This document shows positions 31,365-46,449 of a DNA stretch of 64,000 nt, piece after piece. Both the position numbers and the translations under genes were made by a program. The stretch spans positions 682,001 to 746,000 of the forward strand of contig NZ_CP036250.1 in assembly GCF_004300825.1 (NCBI RefSeq), given 5' to 3'. The first letter of the stretch is position 1. Each line of letters opens with the position of its first letter. The DNA is from Egicoccus halophilus (GTDB taxonomy: Bacteria; Actinomycetota; Nitriliruptoria; Nitriliruptorales; Nitriliruptoraceae). The notes beneath the pieces were generated by a model. It ran no database searches, was not told where the DNA came from, and saw only the letters and a program-made list of their open reading frames with translations.

Positions 31365-31405
31365 TCCAGGCCACCTCCCCGATCCCGGGGAACGCTCGCA
31401 CCATC

Positions 31406-31438
31406 GGCAGGGCCCCGCGCGACGCGCGGGGCCCTGCC
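31406..31438 (+). terminator. Terminator after groEL
   Basis: A perfect 15-bp stem (31406-31420 with 31424-31438, starting GGCAGGGCCCC) with a GAC loop, 42 bases after the groEL stop. There is no T-run, common for actinobacterial terminators. A TACACT at 31472-31477 could be the -10 box for the next operon. Confidence 0.75.
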
Positions 31439-31506
31439 GCGTCGGCGCCGCCCAGCCGGGGCCGACTCGCCTACACTGGCGGTTTTGGACCGTCGGAGGG
31501 AGCCTG

Positions 31507-32151
31507 GTGGGCGAGTTGGCCCTCCCCAGCCTGGTGCGTGACCTGGTGCTGAACCTGGTCGCGGTGACGATCCTGGCGTACGCGATCTACTTCCGGCGGC
31601 ACCGGCGTCGTGACCTGCTGCTCGGCTACGTGGCGCTCAACGTCAGCCTGTTCACCGTCGCCGCCGCGCTGGGTTCGTCGAGTCCGCTCAACGTGGGGGT
31701 GGGTTTCGGGCTGTTCGCGGTGCTCTCGATCGTGCGGCTGCGTTCCGACGAGGCCACGCAGAGCGAGATCGGCTACACGATGGTCGCGCTCGTGCTCGGC
31801 CTCGTCTGCGGGCTGCCGGGGCTCCAGGTGGAGGCCAAGCTGCTGTTCAGCCTGCTGCTGGTCGCCACGATGTACGTCGCCGACCACCCCGCACTGATCC
31901 CTCCCCAGCGTCATCAGCGGTGCCGCGTCGTCCTCGACGTCGTGCACACCGATCACGAGGTGTTGCGGCGCGAGCTCGAACGGCGTCTGGGCGGCATCGT
32001 CCATTCCGTCGTGGTCCAGGAGGTCGACTACGTCCGCGAGACGATGCGACTGGACGTGCGGGTGCGACTGCACCGACCGTCGCGTCTCGACGCGCCGGCC
32101 GACGCCGACGCCGGACCGCGCGAGGAGCTCGCGCCGGGCCGCGGGCGATGA
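31507..32151 (+). CDS. DUF4956 membrane protein
   Basis: A 214-residue protein with about four hydrophobic segments (LVLNLVAVTILAYAIYF; LLGYVALNVSLFTVAAALG; VGFGLFAVLSIVRLR; IGYTMVALVLGLVCGLPG) and a cytosolic tail with VREVDYV-like alpha/beta sequence. The FGLFAVLSIVRLRSDEATQSEIGYT region is the DUF4956 hallmark (core: FAVLSIVRLRSDE). The GTG at 31507 is fixed by GGAGGGAG at 31496-31503. It overlaps the VTC-domain gene (ATGA). The family often neighbours VTC and CotH genes; its role is unknown. Confidence 0.88.
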   Translation: MGELALPSLVRDLVLNLVAVTILAYAIYFRRHRRRDLLLGYVALNVSLFTVAAALGSSSPLNVGVGFGLFAVLSIVRLRSDEATQSEIGYTMVALVLGLVCGLPGLQVEAKLLFSLLLVATMYVADHPALIPPQRHQRCRVVLDVVHTDHEVLRRELERRLGGIVHSVVVQEVDYVRETMRLDVRVRLHRPSRLDAPADADAGPREELAPGRGR

Positions 32152-32960
32152 TCGACGCGCTGCTCGCTGCGCTGCCGGGGGTCCGGCTCGACGAGCTGCC
32201 GGCCGAGGCCGGCCTGCAGCGCCGCTACGACGCCAAGTACCTGGTGCCGCTCGCCCGGCTGCCGGACCTGGTCGGGGTCCTGGCCGCCGACGTGCACGCG
32301 CTGGAGGTCGAGGGTCGGCGCAGCACCGCCTACTCGAGCGTCTACTTCGACACCGCCGAGCTGTTGACCTTCACCGACCACCTCAAGGACCGGCGTCGGC
32401 GGTTCAAGGTCCGCACGCGCTGTTACGGCGAGGCCGAGCCGTTGCTGGAGGTCAAGTACAAGGGCCTGCGGGGGCAGACGGTCAAGGAACGCTTCCGGCA
32501 CACCGGACGAGCCGCCGACCAGCTCGACACGACCGGCATCGCCCAGGTCCGGCAGGCGCTGGCCGGCCACTACCCGGACGAGGTCCCCAGCGACCTGAAC
32601 CCGGTCCTGATGACGCGCTACCGGCGCAGCACGCTGGTGGGTCTCGACGCCGGGGAACGCGTCACCATCGATCGCAACCTCGTCGTCGTCGACCTCGGTG
32701 AGCCCGCGCCGGGTCACCGGCCGGCGGGGACACCGCAGCGCCGGCCCTCGGCGGCGGGACTCGGGGGCAGCCACGCGATCGTCGAGGTGAAGTCGTCGCG
32801 CTTCGCGGGGCCGTCGCACGTCGCGCTCCGTTCGCTGGGTCTGCGCCCCGACCGGCTCAGCAAGTACTGCCTGGGCGTCACCGTCACGCGTCCGACGGTG
32901 CGGGGCAACCCGTGGTTGCCGGTGTTGCGCAAGCTCGTCGAACGGGACGACGCCGCGTGA
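32148..32960 (+). CDS. VTC-domain (polyphosphate polymerase-like) protein
   Basis: A 270-residue protein of the VTC/triphosphate-tunnel fold. Basic and acidic strand motifs line the presumed tunnel: RRYDAKYLVP, YSSVYFDTAELLTF, RRFKVRTRCYG, LLEVKYKG, MTRYRRSTL, RVTIDRNLV and AIVEVKSSRF. Yeast Vtc4 uses such residues to make polyphosphate from ATP. Whether this bacterial homologue makes polyphosphate is unproven. The ATG overlaps the DUF4956 stop by three bases, and its own stop overlaps the CotH start by three (GTGA). Confidence 0.85.
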   Translation: MIDALLAALPGVRLDELPAEAGLQRRYDAKYLVPLARLPDLVGVLAADVHALEVEGRRSTAYSSVYFDTAELLTFTDHLKDRRRRFKVRTRCYGEAEPLLEVKYKGLRGQTVKERFRHTGRAADQLDTTGIAQVRQALAGHYPDEVPSDLNPVLMTRYRRSTLVGLDAGERVTIDRNLVVVDLGEPAPGHRPAGTPQRRPSAAGLGGSHAIVEVKSSRFAGPSHVALRSLGLRPDRLSKYCLGVTVTRPTVRGNPWLPVLRKLVERDDAA

Positions 32961-35224
32961 GTGCCGTCGACACCGACGCGCCGCTGGGGCGGCAGCGACT
33001 GCTGCTCGCCGGTGTCGGACTGGCGGTGCTGGCGGTCATCGCGGGCCTGGCGACCCGGCTCGACCCGGTCGGCATGCCCGACGACGTCGTGCTCAACGAG
33101 CTCGTCGCGTCGAACGCGAGCACGCTGGCCGACGAGGACGGCGATCACCCCGACTGGGTGGAGTTGCACAACCCCACCGACGAGGCCCGCCAGCTCGAGG
33201 GCTGGTTCCTCGGCGACGACCCGGCCGAGCCCGCACGCTGGCGCTTCCCGGCCGTGACCGTCCCCGCCGGCGGCCACCTCGTCGTGTGGCTGTCGGGCAA
33301 GGACCGGCGGGATCCGGCCACCGGACTGCACACCGACTTCGCGTTGGCGCGGACCGGCGAGCCGCTGCTGCTGGTCGAGCCCGACCGGGTGACCGTCGCC
33401 GACCGGCTCGAACCGGTCGCCGTGCCCCGCGACGCCTCCTACGGCCGTGATCCGGACGACCCCAGCCGCTGGTGCTTCTTCGCCAGCCCGACGCCGGGCG
33501 GTCCCAACGACGCGGTCTGCCACGCCGACGCCGACCTCGGTGCGCCGGTGCTCTCGGCGCCGAGCGGCTTCTACGACGGGCCGTTCGACCTGCGCATCGA
33601 GGTCGCGACCTCCGACCCGGTGTACGTCACGCTCGACGGGTCCTACCCGGACCCGCAGCACAACGCCGACGCCACCTTCGTCTACCGGGGGCCGATCCCG
33701 GTCGCCGACCGCTCCGGCGACCCGGACCGGTTCACGACCATCCCGACCACGTTCGCCTTCGACGCGTCGTTCCACGGCGAGGGTTGGCGACCCCCGGCCG
33801 GCCCGCAGCCCAAGGCCACCGTCGTGCGGGCCCGCACCGCCGCGGGGCGCGAACGCGTCGCCACGTACTTCGTCGGCGACCACCTGCGGCGCGAGGCACT
33901 ACCGGTCGCGAACCTCGCCACCGACGCCGAGCACTTCTTCGACCACGAGACCGGCATCTACGTGCCGGGCCGGGTCTACGAGGACTGGTTGGCCGGGCCC
34001 GACGGCGACCCCGACCACGGGTGGAACGTGCCGGCCAACTTCGCCGAGGTCGGCCGGGCGTGGGAACGCCCGCCTGCCGACGACCTCGCGCGCGCCGTCC
34101 ACCTGACGTGGTGCGACGCCGGCGGGGCGTGCACCTACGCGACCGATCTCGGTGTCCGCGTCCACGGTGGCTACAGCCGTCGCCTGCCCGCCAAGTCCCT
34201 GCGGCTCTACGCCCGCAACGACTACGGCGAGCGCACCTTCGACCACGACTTCTTCGCCGCGGCCGAGGCCGACGTACCACCCGATCAGCGCGCCCCGGTG
34301 GGGCACCGACGTCTGTTGATCCGCAACGGCGGGGGAACCTGGGGGCTGTCGTTCCTCAACGACGCGCTGTTCCTCGACCTCGCCCGCCCGATGGCGATCG
34401 ACACCCACGCCGTCCAGCCGATGGTCCTGTACCTCAACGGCGAGTACTGGGGGCTGCACCTGCTGCACGAGCGCTACGACCGGCACTACCTGGCGGCGGT
34501 CCACGGCGTCGACCCGGCCGAGGTCGCCATCCTCGAGGCCCGCTTCGCGCTCGACACCGGGGTCCCGGGTGACGAGCAGCACCTGCTCGACGTGCTCGAC
34601 CTGCTCGCCGAACGCGACCCCGCCGACCCCGACACGATGCGGGCGGTCGAGGCGAGCCTCGATCTCGACAGCTTCCTCGACTACGTGATCCTCGAGACCT
34701 ACGTCGCCAACACCGACTGGCCGCACAACAACGTCCAGGTGTGGCGGACCCGCACGGCCGATCCCGACGGCCCGGCCGTCGCCGACGGACGCTGGCGGTG
34801 GAAGGCCTACGACCTCGACCGGGTCGGTGGCTCGGTGTGGCCCAACGATCCCACCCACGACCTGCTCGCGCATCTGCTCGCGCCGGTCGACGATCCCCGC
34901 GACGACTCGGGCATCCCCTTCCTGCTGCAGCGGCTGCTCGAGAACCCCGAGTTCCGGGAGCGCTTCGTCACGCGCTTCGCGCAGCATCTCGACACCACGT
35001 TCGACCCGGTGCGGGCCGAGGCGCGCCTCGACGAGTTCGTGGCGCTGCTCGCACCCGAGCTGCCGCAGCAGGTCGACCGGTGGGGCTACCCCGGCTCGGT
35101 CGAGGAGTGGGAGGGCTACGTGGCGTCGTTGCGGACCTTCGTCCGCGAACGGCCCCGACACCAGCGTGCCCAACTCGCCCAGCACCTCGGCGTCGAGCCC
35201 CCGGGACCCCCGGAGGAGGGCTGA
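32957..35224 (+). CDS. CotH kinase-family exported protein with lamin-tail domain
   Basis: A 755-residue protein. A single N-terminal membrane segment (LLLAGVGLAVLAVIAGLA) anchors it outside the cell. Next come a lamin-tail-like domain (~40-190; VLNELVASNASTLADEDGDH, DWVELHNPTDEA), a beta region with VYVTLDGSYPDP, and a CotH domain (~310-720). The CotH domain has RVHGGYSRRLPAKSLRLYAR, YLNGEYWGLHLLHERYD, NNVQVWR and WKAYDLDRVGG. CotH proteins of spore formers are atypical kinases of coat proteins; here the target is unknown. The GTG overlaps the VTC stop. Confidence 0.88.
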   Translation: MSAVDTDAPLGRQRLLLAGVGLAVLAVIAGLATRLDPVGMPDDVVLNELVASNASTLADEDGDHPDWVELHNPTDEARQLEGWFLGDDPAEPARWRFPAVTVPAGGHLVVWLSGKDRRDPATGLHTDFALARTGEPLLLVEPDRVTVADRLEPVAVPRDASYGRDPDDPSRWCFFASPTPGGPNDAVCHADADLGAPVLSAPSGFYDGPFDLRIEVATSDPVYVTLDGSYPDPQHNADATFVYRGPIPVADRSGDPDRFTTIPTTFAFDASFHGEGWRPPAGPQPKATVVRARTAAGRERVATYFVGDHLRREALPVANLATDAEHFFDHETGIYVPGRVYEDWLAGPDGDPDHGWNVPANFAEVGRAWERPPADDLARAVHLTWCDAGGACTYATDLGVRVHGGYSRRLPAKSLRLYARNDYGERTFDHDFFAAAEADVPPDQRAPVGHRRLLIRNGGGTWGLSFLNDALFLDLARPMAIDTHAVQPMVLYLNGEYWGLHLLHERYDRHYLAAVHGVDPAEVAILEARFALDTGVPGDEQHLLDVLDLLAERDPADPDTMRAVEASLDLDSFLDYVILETYVANTDWPHNNVQVWRTRTADPDGPAVADGRWRWKAYDLDRVGGSVWPNDPTHDLLAHLLAPVDDPRDDSGIPFLLQRLLENPEFRERFVTRFAQHLDTTFDPVRAEARLDEFVALLAPELPQQVDRWGYPGSVEEWEGYVASLRTFVRERPRHQRAQLAQHLGVEPPGPPEEG

Positions 35225-35226
35225 GC

Positions 35227-36102
35227 GTGGAGCAGCCGCCCTCGACGACGCCGTCTGCGGGACCCGGGTCCGTGCCGGCCGTGCCGCCGGCGGCCGCGCT
35301 GGCCGCGCTGCTGCCCGCCGACGTCGACCTCGCGACAGGCGCCGGCCTGCGCCACGAGGCCGCCCGCCCGGTGTGGTACGGCATGGTCTGGTCCCGGCTG
35401 GGACGCGGTGAGCTCGCCTGGGCCCACTGGGACCGGGTGCGACTGCCCGCCCTGCAGCCCTGGATCGCCGCGGAACGCGGCCGGGTGCTGCGCGAGCTCG
35501 GGTTGCACCGCCGTGCGGAGGCGCTGGAGTGGCCGGCGCTGCTCGCCGCGGACGACGCCGTCGACGCCGCGATGCTGCGGGTGTCGCTGACGGCCGACGC
35601 GGTGGGCACCGGCGACCGCGAGCGGGCTCACCGGCGACTCCAGGCCGCGGCGCGTGCGGTGGCCGAGCTTCCCGACGGGCCGCGGGCAGCGCGTCAGCGC
35701 CTTCGACTGGCCTGGGTCCGCGTCGAGGTCGCGGCGCTGCTGGGCGAGCCGCTGCCGGGCGAGGGCCTGCCGGTGTGGGACGCCGACGCGCAGGCGCCGG
35801 TGCAGCCGCCCGACGCGGCGTGGGGCACCGGTTTCCACGCCGCGAAGGGCCTGCTGTTCGGCGGCCTGGTCTCCGGTGACCTCCGGTTGCTGGACGCCGC
35901 GGCACGGCTCGCCCCGCCCGTGCTGAAGTGGGCGGTGCACCTCGCCCGCGCCGAGGCGTGCGACGACCCCGCCGCGGCCACGACGGCGGCCACGGCGGCG
36001 GCCGCGGCCTGGCAGGTCGTCGTGCCGCCGTGCGACCACGCCGGCGAGGTGGCCGACACCACGACGGCCCGACGTCTGCGAGCCCCGCGCGACCCGGGTT
36101 GA
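35227..36102 (+). CDS. Conserved helical protein of the CotH operon, function unknown
   Basis: A 291-residue, Ala/Arg-rich soluble protein. No signal peptide or membrane segment is seen. Short helical pairs (GMVWSRLGRGELAWAHWDRV; RRLQAAARAVAELPDGPRAA) suggest degenerate TPR-like repeats, and tryptophans recur (WYGMVW, WAVHLA, WQVVVP). The GTG at 35227 is two bases after the CotH stop, with GAGGAGGG at the end of cotH as ribosome-binding site. It is therefore probably the fourth gene of this operon. I do not recognise a named family. Confidence 0.7.
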   Translation: MEQPPSTTPSAGPGSVPAVPPAAALAALLPADVDLATGAGLRHEAARPVWYGMVWSRLGRGELAWAHWDRVRLPALQPWIAAERGRVLRELGLHRRAEALEWPALLAADDAVDAAMLRVSLTADAVGTGDRERAHRRLQAAARAVAELPDGPRAARQRLRLAWVRVEVAALLGEPLPGEGLPVWDADAQAPVQPPDAAWGTGFHAAKGLLFGGLVSGDLRLLDAAARLAPPVLKWAVHLARAEACDDPAAATTAATAAAAAWQVVVPPCDHAGEVADTTTARRLRAPRDPG

Positions 36103-36521: not shown

Positions 36522-36664
36522 CACCTCCCGTCCCGTGATCGACGCGTTGCGGCCGCCGCCGGCCCGGTGTGGCCGACAGGGTACGGCCCCGTCGGTGCGG
36601 CGGGCCGACGGCGCGGTCCCACCTGACGGGTGTGCGGGGTCCTGCTCGTTATCCTCGCCCCACG

Positions 36665-38206
36665 ATGACGAGCCGACCCATCCCCCCCGCACGCCGTTCG
36701 AGCACTCCGCTGTGGCTGCTCGACGGACTCGACGTCCTGCGCCGTCGGGCCGGTGCGGTCCGGGTGACGGTCGTGGCGGTGTGCCTCGTCGGCCTGGTGC
36801 TCGCCGTGGTCGCCCCCGGCGTCGTGCCACCGACCTGGCCCGTCGGTGCCGCGGTCGCGGTGGCGGCGCTGCTGCTCGGTGCAGCGGTCGCGTACGCCGT
36901 CGACACGGCGGACCTCACCCTGCGGGGGCCGCGTCACGTCCGCGCCGCCGGCGGTGAACTGGTCGCGGTCCTGCCGCGCGAGTCCACGGTGGACCGCGTC
37001 GGACCGCTCGCCGAGGCCGTGCTCGAGGCGCGGGAGCCGCAGGGCAAGCTCATCCTCGGCGTGGCTGCCGCCGGCCGGGACGGTCGCCCGGTCGCGGCCC
37101 TCACCGACGCGCTGGCCGTGGCCATCGCCTCCCGACGGACCAGTGTGCTGCGGCTCGACCTGGCCTCCGGACGCAGCGACCGGGCCGGGCTGTACGAGGT
37201 CCTGCGAGCCGAGCGGCGGCTGGTCGACGCGGTCGACTTCGAGCCGGGCGGTCTGCACCTGGCCCGCATGGGTGCCGGTGGCGACCTGGCCGGAGCCCTG
37301 GAGGCCTTCCCGGAACTGCCGCTGCGCCTGCCGCGCGACCTCGACGTGCTGCTGGTCGCGCTGCCGACGGCGGCCTCGCGCACCTCGGTCACGGCTGCGG
37401 CCTCGCTCGACCACGTCCTGGTGGTGGGGGAGCGCGACATCACCTCCCGGGTGGACCTCATCGCCGGTCTCGACGCACTCGAAGCGGCCGGGATCGCCGC
37501 CCAGGTCGTGCTGCTCGATGACGTCACGGCCGACCGGGTGGCGCCGACCTCGCTGCCTTCCGACGACTCCTCGGCCTCCGACGACTCCTCGGCCTCCGGT
37601 GGGTCCTCGGCCTCCGGTGGGTCCTCGGCCTCCGGTGGGTCCTCGGCCTCCGGTGGGTCCTCGGCCGCCGACGAGCCCGTCGGCGACGGGACCGAGCCCA
37701 CGTCGGGTGCAGCGACCGGACGGCCGACGGTCGACGAGCGACCCGACGCGCCGTCGCGGGAGGCCGGCTCCGCCGTGTCGCCCGGGACGCACCCGCGCGC
37801 GACCCTCGCCTCGGGAGCGGGTGTCGACCTCGGGGAGCGCGTCCGTCGCGCCCGCCGTCGCCTGCGTGGGGCGTGGCTGCGGCCGCTGGCCATGACGCCG
37901 GCAACCGGTGTGCCCTTGCTCGCCGGCGCCGCGGGGGCAGCCGGTCCGATCCGCGACCTCCGGGTGTCGGACGCCAGTTCCGTGGCCGCAACCGCGCCGA
38001 GCGGACGGCTGCCGGTCGGCGAGCCGGCGCCCCACGCGACCGTGCCGCCGCCGGACCCGTTCCTGCCGGTCCCCGATCCGGTTCCGGCCCCGGATCCGGA
38101 CCCCATGCCGAGCCCGGATCCGGAGCCCGAGCCCGCGCCCGAGCCCGCCGAGCGTGCACCGGTGGGTGCGGTGCTCGACGACCTCGACGCACACGAGGGC
38201 TTCTGA
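36665..38206 (+). CDS. Membrane protein with degenerate BY-kinase-like domain
   Basis: A 513-residue protein. Two membrane segments (~34-80) precede a domain (~100-300) laid out like a bacterial tyrosine kinase/MinD P-loop fold: ILGVAAAGRDGRPVAALTDA sits where Walker A should be but has no GKT, VLRLDLASGRSDRAGLYEVL resembles Walker A', and LDVLLVALPTA resembles Walker B. It looks like a non-catalytic relative, possibly of polysaccharide chain-length regulators. A Ser/Gly/Asp tandem repeat follows, then a Pro/Asp-rich tail (PDPVPAPDPDPMPSPDPEPE). TATCCT at 36650-36655 is only nine bases from the ATG, suggesting leaderless mRNA. Name of family not known to me. Confidence 0.6.
   Translation: MTSRPIPPARRSSTPLWLLDGLDVLRRRAGAVRVTVVAVCLVGLVLAVVAPGVVPPTWPVGAAVAVAALLLGAAVAYAVDTADLTLRGPRHVRAAGGELVAVLPRESTVDRVGPLAEAVLEAREPQGKLILGVAAAGRDGRPVAALTDALAVAIASRRTSVLRLDLASGRSDRAGLYEVLRAERRLVDAVDFEPGGLHLARMGAGGDLAGALEAFPELPLRLPRDLDVLLVALPTAASRTSVTAAASLDHVLVVGERDITSRVDLIAGLDALEAAGIAAQVVLLDDVTADRVAPTSLPSDDSSASDDSSASGGSSASGGSSASGGSSASGGSSAADEPVGDGTEPTSGAATGRPTVDERPDAPSREAGSAVSPGTHPRATLASGAGVDLGERVRRARRRLRGAWLRPLAMTPATGVPLLAGAAGAAGPIRDLRVSDASSVAATAPSGRLPVGEPAPHATVPPPDPFLPVPDPVPAPDPDPMPSPDPEPEPAPEPAERAPVGAVLDDLDAHEGF
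37562..37669 (+). repeat. Six tandem 18-bp coding repeats
   Basis: Six in-frame 18-bp units encode DDSSAS (twice), GGSSAS (three times) and GGSSAA. Units share TCCTCGGCCTCC and differ mainly in the GACGAC or GGTGGG lead. They form a flexible Ser-rich linker between the nucleotidase-like domain and the C-terminal part. Likely slippage-prone and length-variable. Confidence 0.93.
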
Positions 38207-38890: not shown

Positions 38891-39925
38891 TCAGAGCCGG
38901 AAGGCGCGAACCAGGAAACTGGCCATCTGCGCCCGGGTGACGGTCGCCTCGGGACAGTAGGTCCCCGACGTACACCCACTGGTGACCCCCGCGTCCGCGA
39001 GGGCCTGGATCCAGCCGGCCTGCGGATGGGCGGGATCGACGTCGGCGAAGCTGCGCAGCGCCGCGGGGCGCAGCCCGAGGGCGCGGCCCAGGAACTCGGC
39101 CATCTCGGCGCGGGTCAGCGCACGGTCGGCGCAGAACCGATCGGTCGTGCACCCGGTGGTGATGCTGGCGGCGGTGGTCCCGTTGATGTTCCCGGCGTGC
39201 GTCGCCGTCGAGGCCAGGTCCCGGTACGGCCCGGAGTCCGCGGGCAGCACGCCCTTGGCACGGCCGATGAAGCTGGCGATCTGCCCGCGCGTGACCTGGG
39301 AGCCCGGGCAGAAGCGGTCGGTCCGGCAGCCGCTGGTCACCCCCGACGCGGTCAGCCGGCCGATCGGTGTGGCGTGGGGGCTGGTGGCCCCGACGTCATG
39401 GAAGCGGGTCGTGGGGCTGGTCGTCGCGGCCGAGGTCGGACGCCGGAAGACCTTCGTCACCCAGACGTTGTTGCCGCGCACCTCGACGCCGACCCCGATC
39501 TGGGACACCCGGTCGTCGACGATGTTGCGTCGGTGACCGTCGGAGTTCATGAACGCGGTGTGCAGCGACGTCGCCGATCGGCCGCGACCGACGTTCTCCG
39601 AGAGCCGCTGCCAGTTGCGCACGTCGGTCGACAGGTTGGGGTTGTGGTGCAGGCGATTCTGATCGGCCATCCTCACGCTGTGGCGTCGGGCGACCTGTGT
39701 GAGGTCGCCGGCGACCTGCAGACGGGGCAGGCCGCGCTTCACGCGCTCGGCGTTGACGCTGTCGACGAACCGTCCGGCGAGATCGGGCCGGTCCTGCGCG
39801 AGGGCCGCCGAGGGCGCGAGCACACCGGCGGCGAGCACGAGTGCGACCAGTGCGGCGAGCCCCCCCGTCAGGTGGCGGATCGTGCCACGGCGGCGAGCGC
39901 GACGAACGGGGAGGGCGCGGTACAC
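38891..39925 (-). CDS. CAP-domain protein with three SLH repeats
   Basis: A 344-residue exported protein. The signal peptide is ~1-43 (hydrophobic LVALVLAAGVLAPSAALA). A CAP/YkwD-like domain (~48-162) has VNAERVKRGLPRLQ, SENVGRG, AFMNSDGHRRNIVDDRV and IGVGVEV. Three SLH repeats follow (~175-344) with VTRGQIASFIGRA, LTRAEMAEFLGRA and VTRAQMASFLVRA; two repeats carry paired Cys (SGCRTDRFCPG). The GTG at 39925 is preferred for GAGGA five bases upstream; GTG 39940 is possible. Function of bacterial CAP domains is mostly unknown. Divergent from the amidase gene. Confidence 0.88.
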   Translation of the reverse strand: MYRALPVRRARRRGTIRHLTGGLAALVALVLAAGVLAPSAALAQDRPDLAGRFVDSVNAERVKRGLPRLQVAGDLTQVARRHSVRMADQNRLHHNPNLSTDVRNWQRLSENVGRGRSATSLHTAFMNSDGHRRNIVDDRVSQIGVGVEVRGNNVWVTKVFRRPTSAATTSPTTRFHDVGATSPHATPIGRLTASGVTSGCRTDRFCPGSQVTRGQIASFIGRAKGVLPADSGPYRDLASTATHAGNINGTTAASITTGCTTDRFCADRALTRAEMAEFLGRALGLRPAALRSFADVDPAHPQAGWIQALADAGVTSGCTSGTYCPEATVTRAQMASFLVRAFRL

Positions 39926-40417
39926 GGGGATCCTCGGCACGAGACGACATCAGGGCTTCTCGTGTGCCTGGTCGACCACGCAGCGTTCCTTCTTGAGGGG
40001 TCCGCGTCGGGGGGCGGCGCACGGTGGTGTCGCCGGACGGGGCGACGGTGCACGGCGGCGAATGCCGCGAGGCGATGCGGCTGCGCGGGCACCTCGGCAA
40101 CGCCTGTGGGCCCTCGTCGCGGGTGGACGTGGCATGACAGGAACCTGAAGGACACCAAAACGAGCGCTGGGCGCTCGTTCGTTTCCGGCCCGTAACCCCT
40201 GACAGCGGCCGTTTGCGGCGAATTCCTGGCCGATGGAACTCCGACCACCGGTCTACCGTTGGGAGGTCCGTGGTCGATCGTTCAGTTCGCCCGCCGGTGT
40301 GCCGACCTGCAGGAGAGCGGGTTGCCGCACCACTGCAGCGCGGCGAAGTGCCGCTGTCAGCCGCCCGCCGGACACCCGAACCCGCCGGCCGCCCCCGCCG
40401 GCACGTGGAGGAATACC
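39926..40417 (+). other. Divergent intergenic region between two SLH-protein genes
   Basis: Nearly 500 bases without a gene separate the CAP protein and the amidase. The one clear element is an inverted repeat, AACGAGCGC-TGG-GCGCTCGTT (40159-40179), listed separately. TACCGT at 40254-40259 could be a -10 box for the amidase. I looked for c-di-AMP riboswitch core motifs, common before actinobacterial wall hydrolases, and did not find them. Confidence 0.5.
40159..40179. promoter_or_regulatory. Perfect 9-bp inverted repeat, candidate operator
   Basis: AACGAGCGC (40159-40167), a TGG spacer and GCGCTCGTT (40171-40179) are perfectly complementary. It sits between divergent SLH-protein genes, where a terminator is not expected, so an operator or a leader hairpin is more likely. 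It is unusually AT-flanked (AAAA before, TTCGTTT after). Confidence 0.5.
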
Positions 40418-42127
40418 GTGCGCTCTCTGTTCGCTCGTGCGCTGCTGGTCGCCATGGCTCTGGCGATCGCACCGCCGGCATCGCAAGTCGACGTCGTCGC
40501 GATCCCCGAGGTCGTCAGCGAGGACCTCGCGGTACGCGTCCCGACCGACCGCCTCAGCCTGGCCAGCACCGGGCAGGACGTACCGGACGCGCACCGGTCC
40601 GATCCGATCGCCGCCCCGATCCCGTTCAGCATGGTCGGCTTCCGACTGCCCGACGGCGTCGACAGCGTCCGTGTCCGCACCGCCGGTGACGACGGCAACT
40701 GGGACGAGTGGTACGAACTCGAGCGGATCGACGAGGAGGACGGCCCCGACGCCGGGACCGCCGAAGCCGCCAACGACCGCTCCCAGCGCTACACCGACCC
40801 GGTGTTCGTCGGTGAGGCGACCCGCTTCCAGGTCGAGATCCCCGGTCAGGAGCTGGTCGGTCTGGACGCCGGCGAACTCGAGGTGGCCGCGACCGTGCTC
40901 GACACCGACGGGCTCTCGGGTGGTCCGGTCGCCCGCCGCGCCGTCACGGTCGACGGTCCGGTCGCCGAGGCCGCGACCGCCCCGCGCGTCGTGACGCGTT
41001 CGCAGTGGGGGGCCCGCGCCTACCGCGGCGCGCCCTCGTTCCAGGACAACGTCGACCTCGTCGTGGTGCACCACACGGCGGGCAGCAACAACTACACCAA
41101 GGCGCAGGCGGCCGGGATCGTGCGCGGCATCCAGAGCTGGCACATGGACAGCAACGGCTGGGCCGACATCGGTTACAACGTTCTCGTCGATCGCTTCGGC
41201 ACCATCTACGAGGGGCGCGAGGGCGGGCTCACCCGTGGCGTCGTCGGTGCCCACGCGGCCGGCTACAACTCCGGGTCGTTCGGCATCTCGGTGATGGGCA
41301 ACTTCGTCAGCGTCGACGCGCCACAGGCCGCCTACGAGGCACTGGCCGACACGATCGCGTGGAAGGCCGCCCTCCACGGCTTCGACCCGCAGGGGACGAC
41401 GAACCGGACCTACCGGGGCGCTCGCGTGCGCACGGTCACCGGTCACCGCGACGTCGGTACGACCTCGTGCCCGGGGCGGATCAGCGACCGGCTGTGGTGG
41501 CTGCGCGACCAGGCGGCCAAGCGCTCGACCACGACTCCCGCGACGGGCCCGGCAGGTGGCTCGACGTCCGCCGCCCGATTCGTCGACGTGACCGCGAGCG
41601 CACACCACCACGACTCGATCGTCACCGTCCACGAGACCCGCGCGCTGCTCGGCTTTCAGGTCGCGGGCACCGACCAGTGGGAGTTCCGGCCCAACCAGGC
41701 GCTCAACCGCGGCGACATGGCACGTGCGGTCGCCGTCGGGATGGGTCTCGAGCCGAAGTGGAACGACTGGCAGGGCCGCTTCCCCGACGTCAACAGCAGT
41801 CAGGCCTACTGGCTCGGCCCCTACATCGCCGCGCTCGTGGACGCCGGCATCATCCAGGGGTATCCGGACGGCACCTTCCGGCCCGGCGAGCCCCTGCGCC
41901 GCGACCAGATGGCGACCTTCCTGCACAAGGCGATGAACCTGCGTGACGCACGCCCGACGTTCGTCGACGTGCCCGCCGGGAGCACGCACTACTGGGCGAT
42001 CGGCGCCGTGCAGCGCGAAGGCATCACGATGGGCGTGTCCCCGACCGAGTACGGACCGACGCAGACGATGCGTCGGGACCAGTCGGCGACCCTGGTCGTG
42101 CGGGCCTTCGACCTCCAGGCCCGCTAG
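40418..42127 (+). CDS. PGRP-type N-acetylmuramoyl-L-alanine amidase with three SLH repeats
   Basis: A 569-residue exported enzyme that should cleave the MurNAc-L-Ala bond of peptidoglycan. The signal peptide is ~1-23. Residues 30-185 are a beta-rich N-terminal region. The amidase/PGRP domain is ~190-365: RSQWGARAYRG, zinc ligands H218 (VVVHHTAG), H343 (TGHRDVG) and C351 (TTSCPG). Three SLH repeats end the protein (~390-569; LNRGDMARAVAVG, LRRDQMATFLHKA, MRRDQSATLVVRA). The GTG at 40418 is fixed by GGAGGAAT. Confidence 0.93.
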   Translation: MRSLFARALLVAMALAIAPPASQVDVVAIPEVVSEDLAVRVPTDRLSLASTGQDVPDAHRSDPIAAPIPFSMVGFRLPDGVDSVRVRTAGDDGNWDEWYELERIDEEDGPDAGTAEAANDRSQRYTDPVFVGEATRFQVEIPGQELVGLDAGELEVAATVLDTDGLSGGPVARRAVTVDGPVAEAATAPRVVTRSQWGARAYRGAPSFQDNVDLVVVHHTAGSNNYTKAQAAGIVRGIQSWHMDSNGWADIGYNVLVDRFGTIYEGREGGLTRGVVGAHAAGYNSGSFGISVMGNFVSVDAPQAAYEALADTIAWKAALHGFDPQGTTNRTYRGARVRTVTGHRDVGTTSCPGRISDRLWWLRDQAAKRSTTTPATGPAGGSTSAARFVDVTASAHHHDSIVTVHETRALLGFQVAGTDQWEFRPNQALNRGDMARAVAVGMGLEPKWNDWQGRFPDVNSSQAYWLGPYIAALVDAGIIQGYPDGTFRPGEPLRRDQMATFLHKAMNLRDARPTFVDVPAGSTHYWAIGAVQREGITMGVSPTEYGPTQTMRRDQSATLVVRAFDLQAR

Positions 42128-42139
42128 CGCAGACGACGC

Positions 42140-42202
42140 ACCCACGGCAGCGCTCGAAGGGGCGGTACGGCATCCCCGCCGGACCGCCCCTTCCCCGTGG
42201 GT
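42140..42202 (+). terminator. Nested terminator after the amidase gene
   Basis: The inner stem AAGGGGCGGT (42157-42166) pairs perfectly with 42183-42192. The outer stem ACCCACGG (42140-42147) pairs with CCGTGGGT (42195-42202). CCCCGTTTGTG follows. It begins 12 bases after the amidase stop and lies ahead of the SpoIID gene, separating the two transcripts. Confidence 0.7.
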
Positions 42203-42250
42203 CCCCGTTTGTGACAGAGTCGGTGCTGCAACCTCGTGGGGAGGTCGGAC

Positions 42251-44398
42251 ATGGGCGCACGCCGGATGCGGATGCCGTTGGTCACGGCGGCCTTGGTCGC
42301 ACTGTTGTCGGCGACGGTCGCGCCGGTCGCCGCCGAGCCGGAGGTCGCGGGGCCGGAGGTCGCCGAGCCAGGGGAGGCCGAGCCAGGGGTGGTCGAGCCC
42401 GAGGAGGCCGAGCCCGAGGAGGCCGAGCCCGGGGTGGTCGAGCCCGAGAAGGTCGAGCCCGACGAGGTGCGCGGGACCGGGGCGACCGACACGGTGGCGG
42501 GCACGGCCGTAGCCCCGCCGGCCGACGGGTTCGCCGTGCGGCCGGCCGTCCGGGCCGTCGGTGACCCGCGCCCGGAGGTCCTGTTCCGGGGGTCGGGATG
42601 GGGCCACGGCGTCGGGATGAGTCAGTACGGGGCGCAGGCCATGGCCCGCGCCGGACACGCCGCCGACGAGATCCTGCAGCACTACTACCCGGGGACCGCC
42701 GTGGCCCAGCGCCCGGCGACGATGCCCGTCCGGGTCGGGTTGCGCCAGCTGCACGACGCGCCGTTCGTGCGCGCCGTCGGCGGCGCCGTGACCTGGCACG
42801 CCTGTCCGGCACCGGCCGACCCGACCCGCCGCACGCACGACGACCTGTGCACCGCCCTGACCACGCAGCCGGCGGGCACCACCTACCACGTCTGCCAGGC
42901 CGGCACCTCGCAGCGGGTGCAGACCGTCGCGTGCGGGGCCGCGGGCGGCACCGTCGTCGCGTCCGCGACCCAGCCGATCCTGCGGGTGCACCACCACGGC
43001 GTGCAGATCGAGGCTCCCGGCCCCAATGCGGCGCGGTGCCAGTCCGACGTCCGCGACGGCGTCGGTTGCTATCGCTGGAGCGCCCACGACATCGTCAACG
43101 TCGCGCCGGGCCGCTGGAACACGGTGCAGTACCTGCGCAACCTCCAGCAGTACCTGCACGGGCTCGCAGAGATGCCAGCGTCGTGGAACGCGGCGGCGCT
43201 GCAGGCGCAGGCGATCGCCGGCCGCACCTTCGCGCTGCGCACCATCGGCTTCCGGGCCACCTGCAGCTGCGAGATCCTGGCGACCCCGGCGCACCAGGCC
43301 TACGGCGGCCACCGCACCGAGACGGCGAGCGGCGGTGCCTGGCCACGGGCGGTCGACGCCACCTTCGCCGGCGGCAGCGGCAGCGTGTTGACCTACGACG
43401 GCGCACTGGCGCAGACCTTCTACTCGTCCTCGCACGGCGGCCGCACGGAGGCGGTCGAGGACTCGTGGGCCTATGCCAACAACCCGGTGCCGTACCTGCG
43501 CAGCGTCGACGACCCGTGGTCGCTGGCCGAGCCGCACAACTTCCGCAGCTGGACGTCCAGCGCGACCAACGCCGCCGTCGCGGCGCACGTCTCCTCGGGC
43601 CGCTCCGCCGCGCTCTCGCGGGTGGAACGGGTGCAGATCCTCTCCCGCACCTCCGGTGGCACCCCGCGCGAGGTGCGGGTCAGCGGGGTGACCGCGGCCG
43701 GGATGCCCGACACGTTCGTCTTCACCTCCCGGGCAGCCGACTCACCGACGCTGCAGGCCAAGCGGGTCGCCGGGGCGTCGTTCCGGATGCACCTGCCGAC
43801 GACCGGACACCCGACCGCGGCCGGTAGTCGGCTGCCGAGCTCGCAGATCGCCGCGATCGGGTTCGCGCCGTTCACCGACGACGACGGCACGACCCATGAG
43901 TACGCGATCACCTGGACCGCCCTGGCCGGCATCGCCCAGGGCGTCGGAGGAGCCCGCTTCGCGCCGGGCCGCGACGTCACCCGCGGGCAGATGGCGACGT
44001 TCCTCTACCAGACCTTCGCGATCCCGGCGCCCAGCGTCCGGGGTCGCTTCCCCGACGTGGCCGATCCCGACGCGACCCACGCCCTGGCGATCGATGCGTT
44101 GGCCCAGGCGGGTGTGGCGGGAGGCTTCACCGACGGCATGTTCCGCCCCGGTGCCCCGGTCACCCGGGCACAGATGGCGACGTTCCTCACGGCCGCCGCG
44201 GGGCTGCGCGCCCCGGCGGGAACGGCCGACCCCTTCGTCGACGTGCGGCGACAGGCCGCCCACGGCGAGGCGATCGCAGCGGTCGCGGCCGCCGGTGTGG
44301 CGGCCGGCTGCACGGCCGACGGCAGCGGGTACTGCCCGGGGGACCCCGTGTCCCGCGGACAGATGGCGAGCTTCCTGCGCCGGGTCGCCACGCGATGA
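42251..44398 (+). CDS. SpoIID/LytB-domain protein with three SLH repeats
   Basis: A 715-residue exported protein. The signal peptide is ~1-28; residues 29-75 are a Glu/Pro-rich repeat (EPEEAEPEEAEPGVVEPE). SpoIID-family sequence follows: GWGHGVGMSQYGA at 117-129, then YLHGLAEMPASWNAAALQAQAIAGRTFAL with the candidate catalytic Glu in AEMPASW, then SSSHGGRTEAVED. In the B. subtilis enzyme the GHGVGMSQYGA motif is at the C-terminal side, so order is permuted here. SpoIID is a lytic transglycosylase acting on denuded glycan. Three SLH repeats fill ~510-715. GGGGAGG precedes the ATG. Confidence 0.88.
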   Translation: MGARRMRMPLVTAALVALLSATVAPVAAEPEVAGPEVAEPGEAEPGVVEPEEAEPEEAEPGVVEPEKVEPDEVRGTGATDTVAGTAVAPPADGFAVRPAVRAVGDPRPEVLFRGSGWGHGVGMSQYGAQAMARAGHAADEILQHYYPGTAVAQRPATMPVRVGLRQLHDAPFVRAVGGAVTWHACPAPADPTRRTHDDLCTALTTQPAGTTYHVCQAGTSQRVQTVACGAAGGTVVASATQPILRVHHHGVQIEAPGPNAARCQSDVRDGVGCYRWSAHDIVNVAPGRWNTVQYLRNLQQYLHGLAEMPASWNAAALQAQAIAGRTFALRTIGFRATCSCEILATPAHQAYGGHRTETASGGAWPRAVDATFAGGSGSVLTYDGALAQTFYSSSHGGRTEAVEDSWAYANNPVPYLRSVDDPWSLAEPHNFRSWTSSATNAAVAAHVSSGRSAALSRVERVQILSRTSGGTPREVRVSGVTAAGMPDTFVFTSRAADSPTLQAKRVAGASFRMHLPTTGHPTAAGSRLPSSQIAAIGFAPFTDDDGTTHEYAITWTALAGIAQGVGGARFAPGRDVTRGQMATFLYQTFAIPAPSVRGRFPDVADPDATHALAIDALAQAGVAGGFTDGMFRPGAPVTRAQMATFLTAAAGLRAPAGTADPFVDVRRQAAHGEAIAAVAAAGVAAGCTADGSGYCPGDPVSRGQMASFLRRVATR

Positions 44399-46449
44399 CG
44401 GAACCGTCCGGCGTCCGGGGGGGTGGCGTCCACCGAGGTTCCACACGCACACGAACACGCTTCCGCGCCCCGCTGGCCGCGTCCCGTTCGTCGCGCGGAC
44501 TCGCGGCCGCGCTGATCGTCGCGTCAGGGGTCGCGTTCGTGCACGGACCGCCGCGGCCGGCAGCCGCCGTCGCGCAACCCGTACCGGTGGCGAGCGCCGG
44601 TGCGTCCGGGGACGCGGTGGTCGTCGACGGGTCGCTGCGACTGCTGCTCGGTTGGGCCCCGGACGCCGCCGCGGCGGCGCGGGCACAGGTGCTCGACACG
44701 TACGGACTGGCGGTGTCGCGCGCCGTGAGCGGCTCGGTCGACGCGGTGGACGTGCCCCCGGACGAGGCGGACGCACTCGCGAGGCGTCTGCGCACGCAGC
44801 CGGAGGTCGAGCTGGTCGAGGTGGACCGCTGGCTGTGGGCGGCCGAGCACACGGTCGACGAGCCCGTGGTCGACGACCCGCTGTTCCGCGACCAGTGGGG
44901 GCTGCACAACTCCGGTCGCCCCGTCGAGGGCCGCCCGACCGCCGCCGGGACCGACGTGCGCGCCGGAGCGGCCTGGCAGCGCACCCGTGGCGCCCCCGAG
45001 GTCCTCGTCGCGCTCATCGACGGCGGGGTCGATCTCGCCCACCCCGACCTGGCCGGTGCGATCTGGACCATCCCGCGCGAGGCGGCCGACGGCCGGGACC
45101 TCGACGGCAACGGCTACGTCGACGACCTGCACGGCTGGAACTTCGTCGACGACACCCCGGACGTGACCAACGTCTCACGCCAGGACTGGCACGGAACGGC
45201 GGTCGCGGGGATCATCGCGGCGCGCGCCGACGACGGCGTCGGGATCGCGGGCATGGCGCCCGAGGTGACGCTGCTGCCCCTGCGTACCTTCGTCGTGGAC
45301 GGTTCCGGTCCCGGGCGTGCCACGCTGGCCGCCACGCTCGAGGCGTTCGCGTACGCCCGACGGGCCGGAGCCGACCTGGTCAACGCCTCGTGGGTGCACC
45401 CGTCCGACAGCCGGCTGCTGCGGGCGGCGGTCCGCGACGCCGGCGTGCCGGTCGTGGCCGCGGCGGGCAACGACGGACACGACCTCACCGTGGGGCCGGG
45501 AACGGCCTTCCCGGCCGGCTACCGCCTGCCGAACCTGGTCAGCGTGACCGCCGTCGGGCCTTCGGGTGGCCTGCCGTCCTACGCCAACGTCGGACGGGCC
45601 AGCATCGACGTCGGCGCCCCCGGCGTACGGATCCGCACGACTGCTCCGGGCGCGTGGCAGTTCGCCGACGGCACCTCGTTCGCGACCCCGTTCGTGACGG
45701 GGGCACTGGCGCTGGCCCGCACGGCGTACCCGGACGCGGCCGCCGCCGATCTCGTCGACGCGGTGTCGTGGACCTCGCGGGTGACGGTGGGCACGCGGGA
45801 CACGACCATCTCGCGCGGGATGCTCGACGCGGCAGCGTTGCTCGACGGGCTCGACCGTCCCGTGTGCGGCCACGGTGTGCTCGGCGCGCCGCCGTTCCCC
45901 GACGTCCCGGCGGGGGCGACCCACGCCACGGCGATCAGCTGTCTGCGCACCAACGGGGTGACGGTCGGTGACCGGCAGGGTCGTTACGGCCCCGGTGCGA
46001 CGCTCACGCGTGGGCAGCTGGCGACCCTGCTGCTGGGCACCCTGGCCGCCGCGGGGGTCGAGCTCCCGGCCGCCACCGCCCAGCCGTTCACCGACGTGGA
46101 GCACTCGGTGCACCGCGATGCCATCGAGCGTCTGGCCGCGGTCGGCATCGCGCAGGGGGACCGGTCGGATCGCTTCCTCCCCGACCGCCCGGTGACCCGC
46201 GCGCAGCTGGCCGCGCTCGCCGGGCGGGTCCACGTGTTCGCCACCGGTGAGGCCCGGGCTCCCAGCCGCAACTGGTTCGCCGACGACGACGCCAGCACGC
46301 ACGCCGCCGCCGTCGACGTGGCGCGCGACCTCGGGGTGGTCCGCGGCGTGGCCGTGCTGCGGTTCGCCCCCGGCGGCGACACCCGCCGCGACCAGGCGGC
46401 GAGTGTGCTGGCCCGGTTGCTCGACGCCCTGGCGCGCGCCGGGGCGTGA
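44395..46449 (+). CDS. Subtilisin-like serine protease with three SLH repeats (1)
   Basis: A 684-residue exported S8 protease. The triad is intact: D209 (LIDGGVD), H266 (WHGTAVAG), S428 (DGTSFATPF), with oxyanion N359 (AAAGND). An I9-like propeptide lies at ~75-150. Three SLH repeats end the protein (~495-684; LTRGQLATLLLG, VTRAQLAALAGR, TRRDQAASVLAR). The ATG overlaps the SpoIID TGA (ATGA), so the protease and the transglycosylase are coupled. It may mature surface proteins or process the SLH layer. Confidence 0.92.
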   Translation: MTEPSGVRGGGVHRGSTRTRTRFRAPLAASRSSRGLAAALIVASGVAFVHGPPRPAAAVAQPVPVASAGASGDAVVVDGSLRLLLGWAPDAAAAARAQVLDTYGLAVSRAVSGSVDAVDVPPDEADALARRLRTQPEVELVEVDRWLWAAEHTVDEPVVDDPLFRDQWGLHNSGRPVEGRPTAAGTDVRAGAAWQRTRGAPEVLVALIDGGVDLAHPDLAGAIWTIPREAADGRDLDGNGYVDDLHGWNFVDDTPDVTNVSRQDWHGTAVAGIIAARADDGVGIAGMAPEVTLLPLRTFVVDGSGPGRATLAATLEAFAYARRAGADLVNASWVHPSDSRLLRAAVRDAGVPVVAAAGNDGHDLTVGPGTAFPAGYRLPNLVSVTAVGPSGGLPSYANVGRASIDVGAPGVRIRTTAPGAWQFADGTSFATPFVTGALALARTAYPDAAAADLVDAVSWTSRVTVGTRDTTISRGMLDAAALLDGLDRPVCGHGVLGAPPFPDVPAGATHATAISCLRTNGVTVGDRQGRYGPGATLTRGQLATLLLGTLAAAGVELPAATAQPFTDVEHSVHRDAIERLAAVGIAQGDRSDRFLPDRPVTRAQLAALAGRVHVFATGEARAPSRNWFADDDASTHAAAVDVARDLGVVRGVAVLRFAPGGDTRRDQAASVLARLLDALARAGA

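Follow-up and report, generated by a model that had tools for sequence, protein, structure and literature searches.

A CotH, VTC and DUF4956 gene trio in Egicoccus halophilus and its possible role in phosphorylation outside the membrane

Genes for CotH, a poly-P polymerase, DUF4956 and DUF4832 have been described as accessory genes of Gram-positive Pel systems, and the CotH, polymerase (VTC) and DUF4956 genes (hereafter the trio) are neighbors of pel genes in both streptococci and clostridia (PMC7112168). In Streptococcus intermedius, SIR_1592-1594 represent the CotH, VTC and DUF4956 families at the Pel locus. Deleting either the DUF4956 gene or the CotH gene there alters aggregation, and the two deletions affect Pel level oppositely; no aggregation change is reported for loss of the VTC gene, SIR_1593 (PMC12345266). 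The same paper reports failing to find the arrangement beyond the Pel locus. A cluster in Clostridium perfringens, NELoc-2, contains genes labeled VTC, ‘tubulin’, CotH, hypothetical, HEAT and glycosyltransferase (PMC2879425), and linkage among these families can be followed through several papers (PMC2879425, PMC7112168, PMC11677781, PMC12345266).

Two further systems bear on the individual proteins. In yeast, polyphosphate is synthesized in the cytosol by the VTC complex, whose membrane subunits conduct it along a basic path with a basic channel entrance, and a triple mutation of Vtc4 residues R264, R266 and E426 impairs the complex (PMC9911596). The Bacillus spore-coat kinase CotH (structure 5jd9) uses ATP in vitro, and the source of its ATP has been called unanswered; D228 is the catalytic aspartate of the B. 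subtilis protein (PMC7821199).

The locus analyzed here lies in a 64,000-nucleotide stretch of the Egicoccus halophilus genome (the window; NZ_CP036250.1, positions 682,001 to 746,000), to which all coordinates below refer. Four forward-strand reading frames were confirmed base by base: a DUF4956 membrane protein of 214 amino acids (31507..32151, +; GTG start at 31507, TGA stop at 32151), a VTC-domain (triphosphate-tunnel) protein of 270 amino acids with no membrane segment (32148..32960, +; ATG 32148, TGA 32960), a CotH kinase-family protein of 755 amino acids that also carries a lamin-tail domain (LTD) (32957..35224, +; GTG 32957, TGA 35224), and gene D, encoding a TPR-like helical protein of 291 amino acids that we place outside the system (35227..36102, +; GTG 35227, TGA 36102). 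The initial annotation had described four genes that overlap or lie within two bases of one another, and this holds: DUF4956 and VTC share 4 bases (ATGA), VTC and CotH share 4 bases (GTGA), and 2 bases separate CotH from D. Its naming of the first three families is borne out as well, each match scoring far above its Pfam cut-off (DUF4956, PF16316: 168.5 bits versus 30.6, E 1.4e-49; VTC: 96.4 bits versus 23, E 2.5e-27; CotH, PF08757: 159.6 bits versus 23.8, E 1.7e-46). Profile searches across the genome found a single CotH, a single VTC and a single DUF4956, all at this locus. PPK1, the usual bacterial polyphosphate kinase, is encoded at a separate place in the same genome, so the VTC protein would not be the sole polyphosphate enzyme there.

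Between groEL and the trio lies a perfect 16-bp hairpin (31405..31440, +; z -5.1) that is terminator-like and has no T-run, which is why a pattern scan reports no terminator at this site; its position 5′ of DUF4956 fits a transcription unit separate from groEL. A pattern scan for sigma-70 promoters found none. In a congener (G041), the 4-base VTC/CotH overlap is retained, DUF4956 and VTC stand ~68-115 bases apart depending on start codon choice, and CotH and D are separated by at least 59 bases, again by start codon choice, so the tight CotH/D spacing is not conserved.

The profile of the window VTC protein matches the yeast Vtc4 structure 3g3q (E 6.6e-22), and every match in the PDB with a significant E-value is a Vtc subunit. 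R89, R91 and E213 align with Vtc4 R264, R266 and E426, the residues of the triple mutant, and form part of a longer set aligned with Vtc4 tunnel residues (K30, R89, R91, K103, K113, R160, R171, E213, S238 and K239). Vtc4 K200, K281, K294, R361, R373 and K458, which we take to be further active-site residues, are all matched in the window protein. The likeness to yeast thus comprises a tunnel polymerase domain with an aligned active site, a membrane partner, and basic residues facing the cytosol; in contrast to yeast, the polymerase and the membrane part are separate genes, and Pfam and NCBIfam scans of the locus proteins found no SPX domain or family. In some Streptomyces-type VTC proteins (L160, L165, L169, L182 and L191), RSYLVP or NSYLVP replaces RKYLVP, placing serine at the position of Vtc4 K200.

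The DUF4956 protein has five hydrophobic segments, in agreement with the five helices of its predicted model, which are followed by a C-terminal beta-alpha-beta-beta domain. Conserved R31, R34, R77 and R79 fall on the predicted cytosolic face, as do most of the conserved basic residues of the protein, and the positive-inside rule would assign an RRHRRR loop, R77/R79 and the C-terminal domain to the cytosol. A Foldseek search with the model gave no match at E <= 0.001; the best VIA-align match, with Z 8.1 across 92 residues, was a viral protein, with the remaining matches scattered among membrane or ferredoxin-like domains and no Vtc membrane domain among the matches listed. For a known channel fold, neither tool gave a clear match. 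DUF4956 differs from the Vtc membrane domains in having five helices and another C-terminal domain, with no homology to them detected. An MgtC domain is stated for the S. intermedius homolog (PMC12345266); the window protein shows weak profile similarity to MgtC (hhalign probability 29.6% over 59 columns).

The CotH protein is predicted to act outside the membrane. Its sole hydrophobic segment is an N-terminal membrane anchor (residues 15-33) that precedes both the lamin-tail domain (residues 42-140; E 1.3e-09, Pfam) and the CotH domain (residues 400-734; 34154..35158, +; Pfam). The profile matches the solved kinase 5jd9 (E 1.1e-39), and D587, D619, D621, N592, E505 and K413 occupy positions aligned with it, with the catalytic D587 and metal-site D619/D621 inside the motifs NTDW..NN and YDLD of the alignment; D587 is, by our reading, the residue aligned with B. 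subtilis D228. With catalytic residues kept in both VTC and CotH, both proteins look active. The window CotH thus shares its domain and catalytic residues with the Bacillus spore-coat kinase (PMC7821199) but differs in its membrane anchor, its lamin-tail domain and its pairing with VTC and DUF4956. As a control, the B. subtilis genome gave a profile match for CotH and none for VTC or DUF4956. In six other CotH proteins (L133-L138), with CotH divergent from VTC and DUF4956, glutamate occupies the position of window D587. A phage-borne CotH was also considered, and a single tblastn of a phage collection with one CotH query returned no match.

Co-occurrence across Actinomycetota ties VTC to DUF4956, and the pair (hereafter the core) to an exported partner. 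In an even sample of 296 genomes, placed in this phylum by its named relatives, DUF4956 was found in 33, VTC in 32 and CotH in 22. DUF4956 is present in all 32 VTC genomes, and at 34 of 35 DUF4956 places VTC is its immediate same-strand neighbor; CotH lies within 6 kb of DUF4956 at 20 of these 35. The core occurs in 21 of the 22 CotH genomes, the exception (G209) involving a contig end. Export of CotH, called by hydropathy and by eye, appears to follow the core: of the 20 sampled genomes in which the N-terminus is visible, 19 show a lipoprotein-type signal or a membrane anchor there, with G156, which has broken frames nearby, as the exception and G200 and G209 left out at contig ends. Among the 11 core genomes without CotH, the core adjoins a large Cthe_2159-family protein in 10 and a histidine kinase/response regulator pair in 8 (families confirmed for representatives); the Cthe_2159 proteins beside the core look exported, judging by those N-termini that were read. 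Searched for across all 296 genomes, Cthe_2159 turned up in 15, of which 14 have the core. Taking the partners together, CotH or Cthe_2159 occurs in 31/32 core genomes and within 6 kb at 31/34 core places, and the core occurs in 31/33 genomes with either partner; the hypergeometric value for this co-occurrence, 1.7e-38, is only a guide, since it ignores relatedness. One genome (G252) has two cores, one by CotH and the other by Cthe_2159.

Pel genes do not accompany this distribution. PelG was found in none of the 32 core genomes of the phylum sample and not in the window's genome, so the trio is not confined to a Pel accessory role. Compared with the Pel accessory set, the window has the same three families, contiguous and with a secreted CotH; it differs in the absence of PelG, in the lamin-tail domain and membrane anchor of its CotH, and in the lack of DUF4832 among the neighbors scanned with Pfam. 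The trio is real and is wider than published.

The pattern of core and partner has limits. The named loci are the best 80 of 540 relatives of the window's DUF4956, and among these 80 VTC stands beside DUF4956 at 79 and a two-component pair is present at 34, while CotH lies within 5 kb at 7 and Cthe_2159 at 2. The core is often without CotH or Cthe_2159 close by in loci of Streptomyces, Nocardiopsis, Amycolatopsis and relatives. Under strict criteria, Asp-rich exported proteins stand beside two-component pairs at 4 of the 80 loci; in Nocardiopsis-type loci (L146, L171, L181 and L205), the histidine kinase adjoining the core is flanked by a small exported protein with a poly-Asp end, and similar acidic proteins occur in core loci of Glycomyces and Amycolatopsis.

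Plasmids from other phyla add further arrangements. A Planococcus plasmid carries VTC-DUF4956-CotH followed by hypothetical, HEAT-repeat and glycosyltransferase genes, and a Pseudobutyrivibrio plasmid carries CotH-VTC-DUF4956 amid glycosyltransferases. The Planococcus cluster looks like NELoc-2; both share with the window the co-location of VTC and CotH (Planococcus also DUF4956) but differ in their HEAT and glycosyltransferase genes, which are not among the window neighbors. On an Enterococcus faecalis plasmid (L234, 986-6116), VTC, DUF4956, a response regulator, a histidine kinase and a lipoprotein-type CotH follow one another in one direction, joining the CotH and two-component contexts found apart elsewhere. 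Alphaproteobacterial plasmids (L227, L228 and L236) place DUF4956-VTC beside a phytase-like protein, with an inorganic phosphate transporter also present on L227. CotH occurs with no core nearby in Alicyclobacillus (a spore-type CotH lacking an export signal), Hymenobacter and Paenibacillus, the last with a VTC gene 1.7 Mb off on the same record; overall, the core is close to CotH in 3 of the 6 plasmid records that bear CotH.

The families, the gene order, the active-site residues, the CotH anchor and the co-occurrence of the core with exported partners are apparent at the level of sequence. We infer, tentatively, a three-gene system in which VTC and DUF4956 would make polyphosphate and hand it to, or through, the membrane, and the exported CotH would use the phosphate outside. 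VTC, as a polymerase in the cytosol, and DUF4956, as its partner in the membrane, would form the core, making polyphosphate from ATP, and could deliver it to or across the membrane in the manner of yeast Vtc4 and the membrane subunits of its complex; CotH could then take high-energy phosphate outside the membrane and transfer it to surface polymers or to proteins of the envelope. One would not expect ATP on that side of the membrane, and exported kinases have no obvious ATP supply. It is this scarcity, together with the unanswered source of ATP for Bacillus CotH, that leads us to propose the core as the supplier of phosphate to CotH. An inside polymerase, a membrane protein whose basic residues are conserved and an outside kinase, all encoded in one tight array, favor such a donor role. 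The aligned active sites, the co-occurrence counts, the core-free settings of the Alicyclobacillus CotH and of the B. subtilis control, and the phytase-like and phosphate-transporter neighbors of the core on alphaproteobacterial plasmids speak for it as well. The initial annotation had suggested an exported phosphorylation or polyphosphate system; the Vtc4 and CotH residues, the anchor and the linkage fit that suggestion for three of the genes, but not for the fourth, gene D.

A two-compartment phosphotransfer, in which VTC and DUF4956 export polyphosphate as the CotH donor and the Cthe_2159 and phytase-like proteins of sister systems bind or consume the polymer, strikes us as doubtful. For the donor role in general, the Bacillus CotH works with ATP in vitro, and we know of no CotH that uses polyphosphate. 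Against a simple donor model also speaks the deletion of SIR_1593 (VTC), for which no aggregation phenotype is reported (PMC12345266). Weak points are the opposite shifts in Pel level upon deletion of the DUF4956 and CotH genes (PMC12345266) and the predicted DUF4956 structure, which appears to match no known channel. The frequent lack of a partner near the core, and a close core in just half of the CotH plasmid records, count against the model as well.

Alternatively, the trio may tune the production or export of surface polysaccharide, a reading that we consider possible but on balance unlikely. DUF4956, with its membrane part and ACT-like domain, would sense a metabolite, VTC would set a local phosphate signal, and the exported CotH would phosphorylate synthesis or matrix proteins with ATP from an unspecified source. 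Consistent with such regulation, the trio adjoins pel genes in streptococcal and clostridial genomes (PMC7112168), loss of the DUF4956 or the CotH gene changes Pel level and aggregation (PMC12345266), and glycosyltransferases surround the trio on the Planococcus and Pseudobutyrivibrio plasmids. However, the core genomes of the phylum sample lack PelG throughout, the window genes flanking the trio belong to a D/groEL block, and a regulatory role offers no phosphate source outside the membrane.

It is also conceivable, though improbable, that the window VTC is a triphosphate-tunnel hydrolase (a tripolyphosphatase or nucleotide triphosphatase) and that the pair clears phosphate polymers and does not make them. 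The tunnel superfamily catalyzes diverse reactions (PMC4641920), and serine replaces the lysine aligned with Vtc4 K200 in several Streptomyces-type VTC rows; yet the window protein retains K30 at that position along with all the other tunnel residues checked, and its significant PDB matches are confined to Vtc subunits.

Gene D appears to have a history of its own. It matches no Pfam or NCBIfam family, gives only sub-threshold Pfam hints of TPR and has no hydrophobic segment; its model (mean pLDDT 65) is TPR-like, with a best Z of 11.7 (189 residues, 5.7 A rmsd), under the level that the tool deems safe for helical repeats. Among 66 genomes of the class, 16 encode a homolog, all of these within the window's family, and 8 encode CotH; 4 genomes have both, leaving 12 of the 16 D genomes with no CotH at all, and D lies directly 3′ of CotH only in two congeners (G000 and G041). 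At 14 other D loci compared, the window's next gene after D (p36569, 36569-38206) is kept in 13 and the trio is present at just one (G041); in G045 and G050, groEL directly precedes D. An older groES-groEL-D-p36569 block, with the trio situated beside it in this genus, is the simplest history. Gene D is therefore a resident gene of the site and not part of the three-gene system. On a 3.07-kb Nitriliruptoraceae contig (L131, 615-3063, apparently the same contig as G038:C201, with which it shares its length and its D sequence), D lies upstream of DUF4956-VTC, on the opposite side from the window, so the trio stands beside D in two arrangements; this is the one hint of a tie. That all four genes act together, with D serving the kinase system as a TPR-type adaptor, is very improbable: the 2-base CotH/D spacing in the window, the adjacency in G041 and on L131 and the TPR-like model speak for it, but we reject a four-gene unit because D occurs without CotH in most of its genomes and keeps its own neighbors, and the CotH/D spacing is not kept in G041. 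The conserved linkage of the fourth gene that the initial annotation asked about accordingly fails, D being separable from the trio.

The protein p36569 (+) is hydrophobic in its N-terminal part, weakly matches MinD-like proteins and has a Ser-rich repeat run; it belongs to the conserved D block. Its Ser-rich repeat is unsupported as a CotH substrate, as p36569 is conserved in genomes lacking CotH. The region 38891-46449 encodes a CAP+SLH protein and three proteins sharing SLH-like stretches (tblastn cross-hits) and looks like a surface-layer gene cluster, whose products are possible candidate substrates of CotH.

The families and the linkage of CotH, polymerase and DUF4956 as Pel accessories are already in print (PMC7112168, PMC12345266). 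In the literature covered, with most subscription papers and bioRxiv outside that coverage, we found no proposal of polyphosphate as a CotH donor and no link between the core and Cthe_2159. Nor did we find in print a Pel-free actinobacterial distribution, a single core with alternative exported partners, or CotH export matching core presence. The near-obligate pairing of an exported CotH with a polymerase/membrane pair offers a testable answer to the ATP-source question. If true, it would explain how an extracellular bacterial kinase is fueled without ATP and would represent a widespread means of phosphorylating bacterial surfaces.
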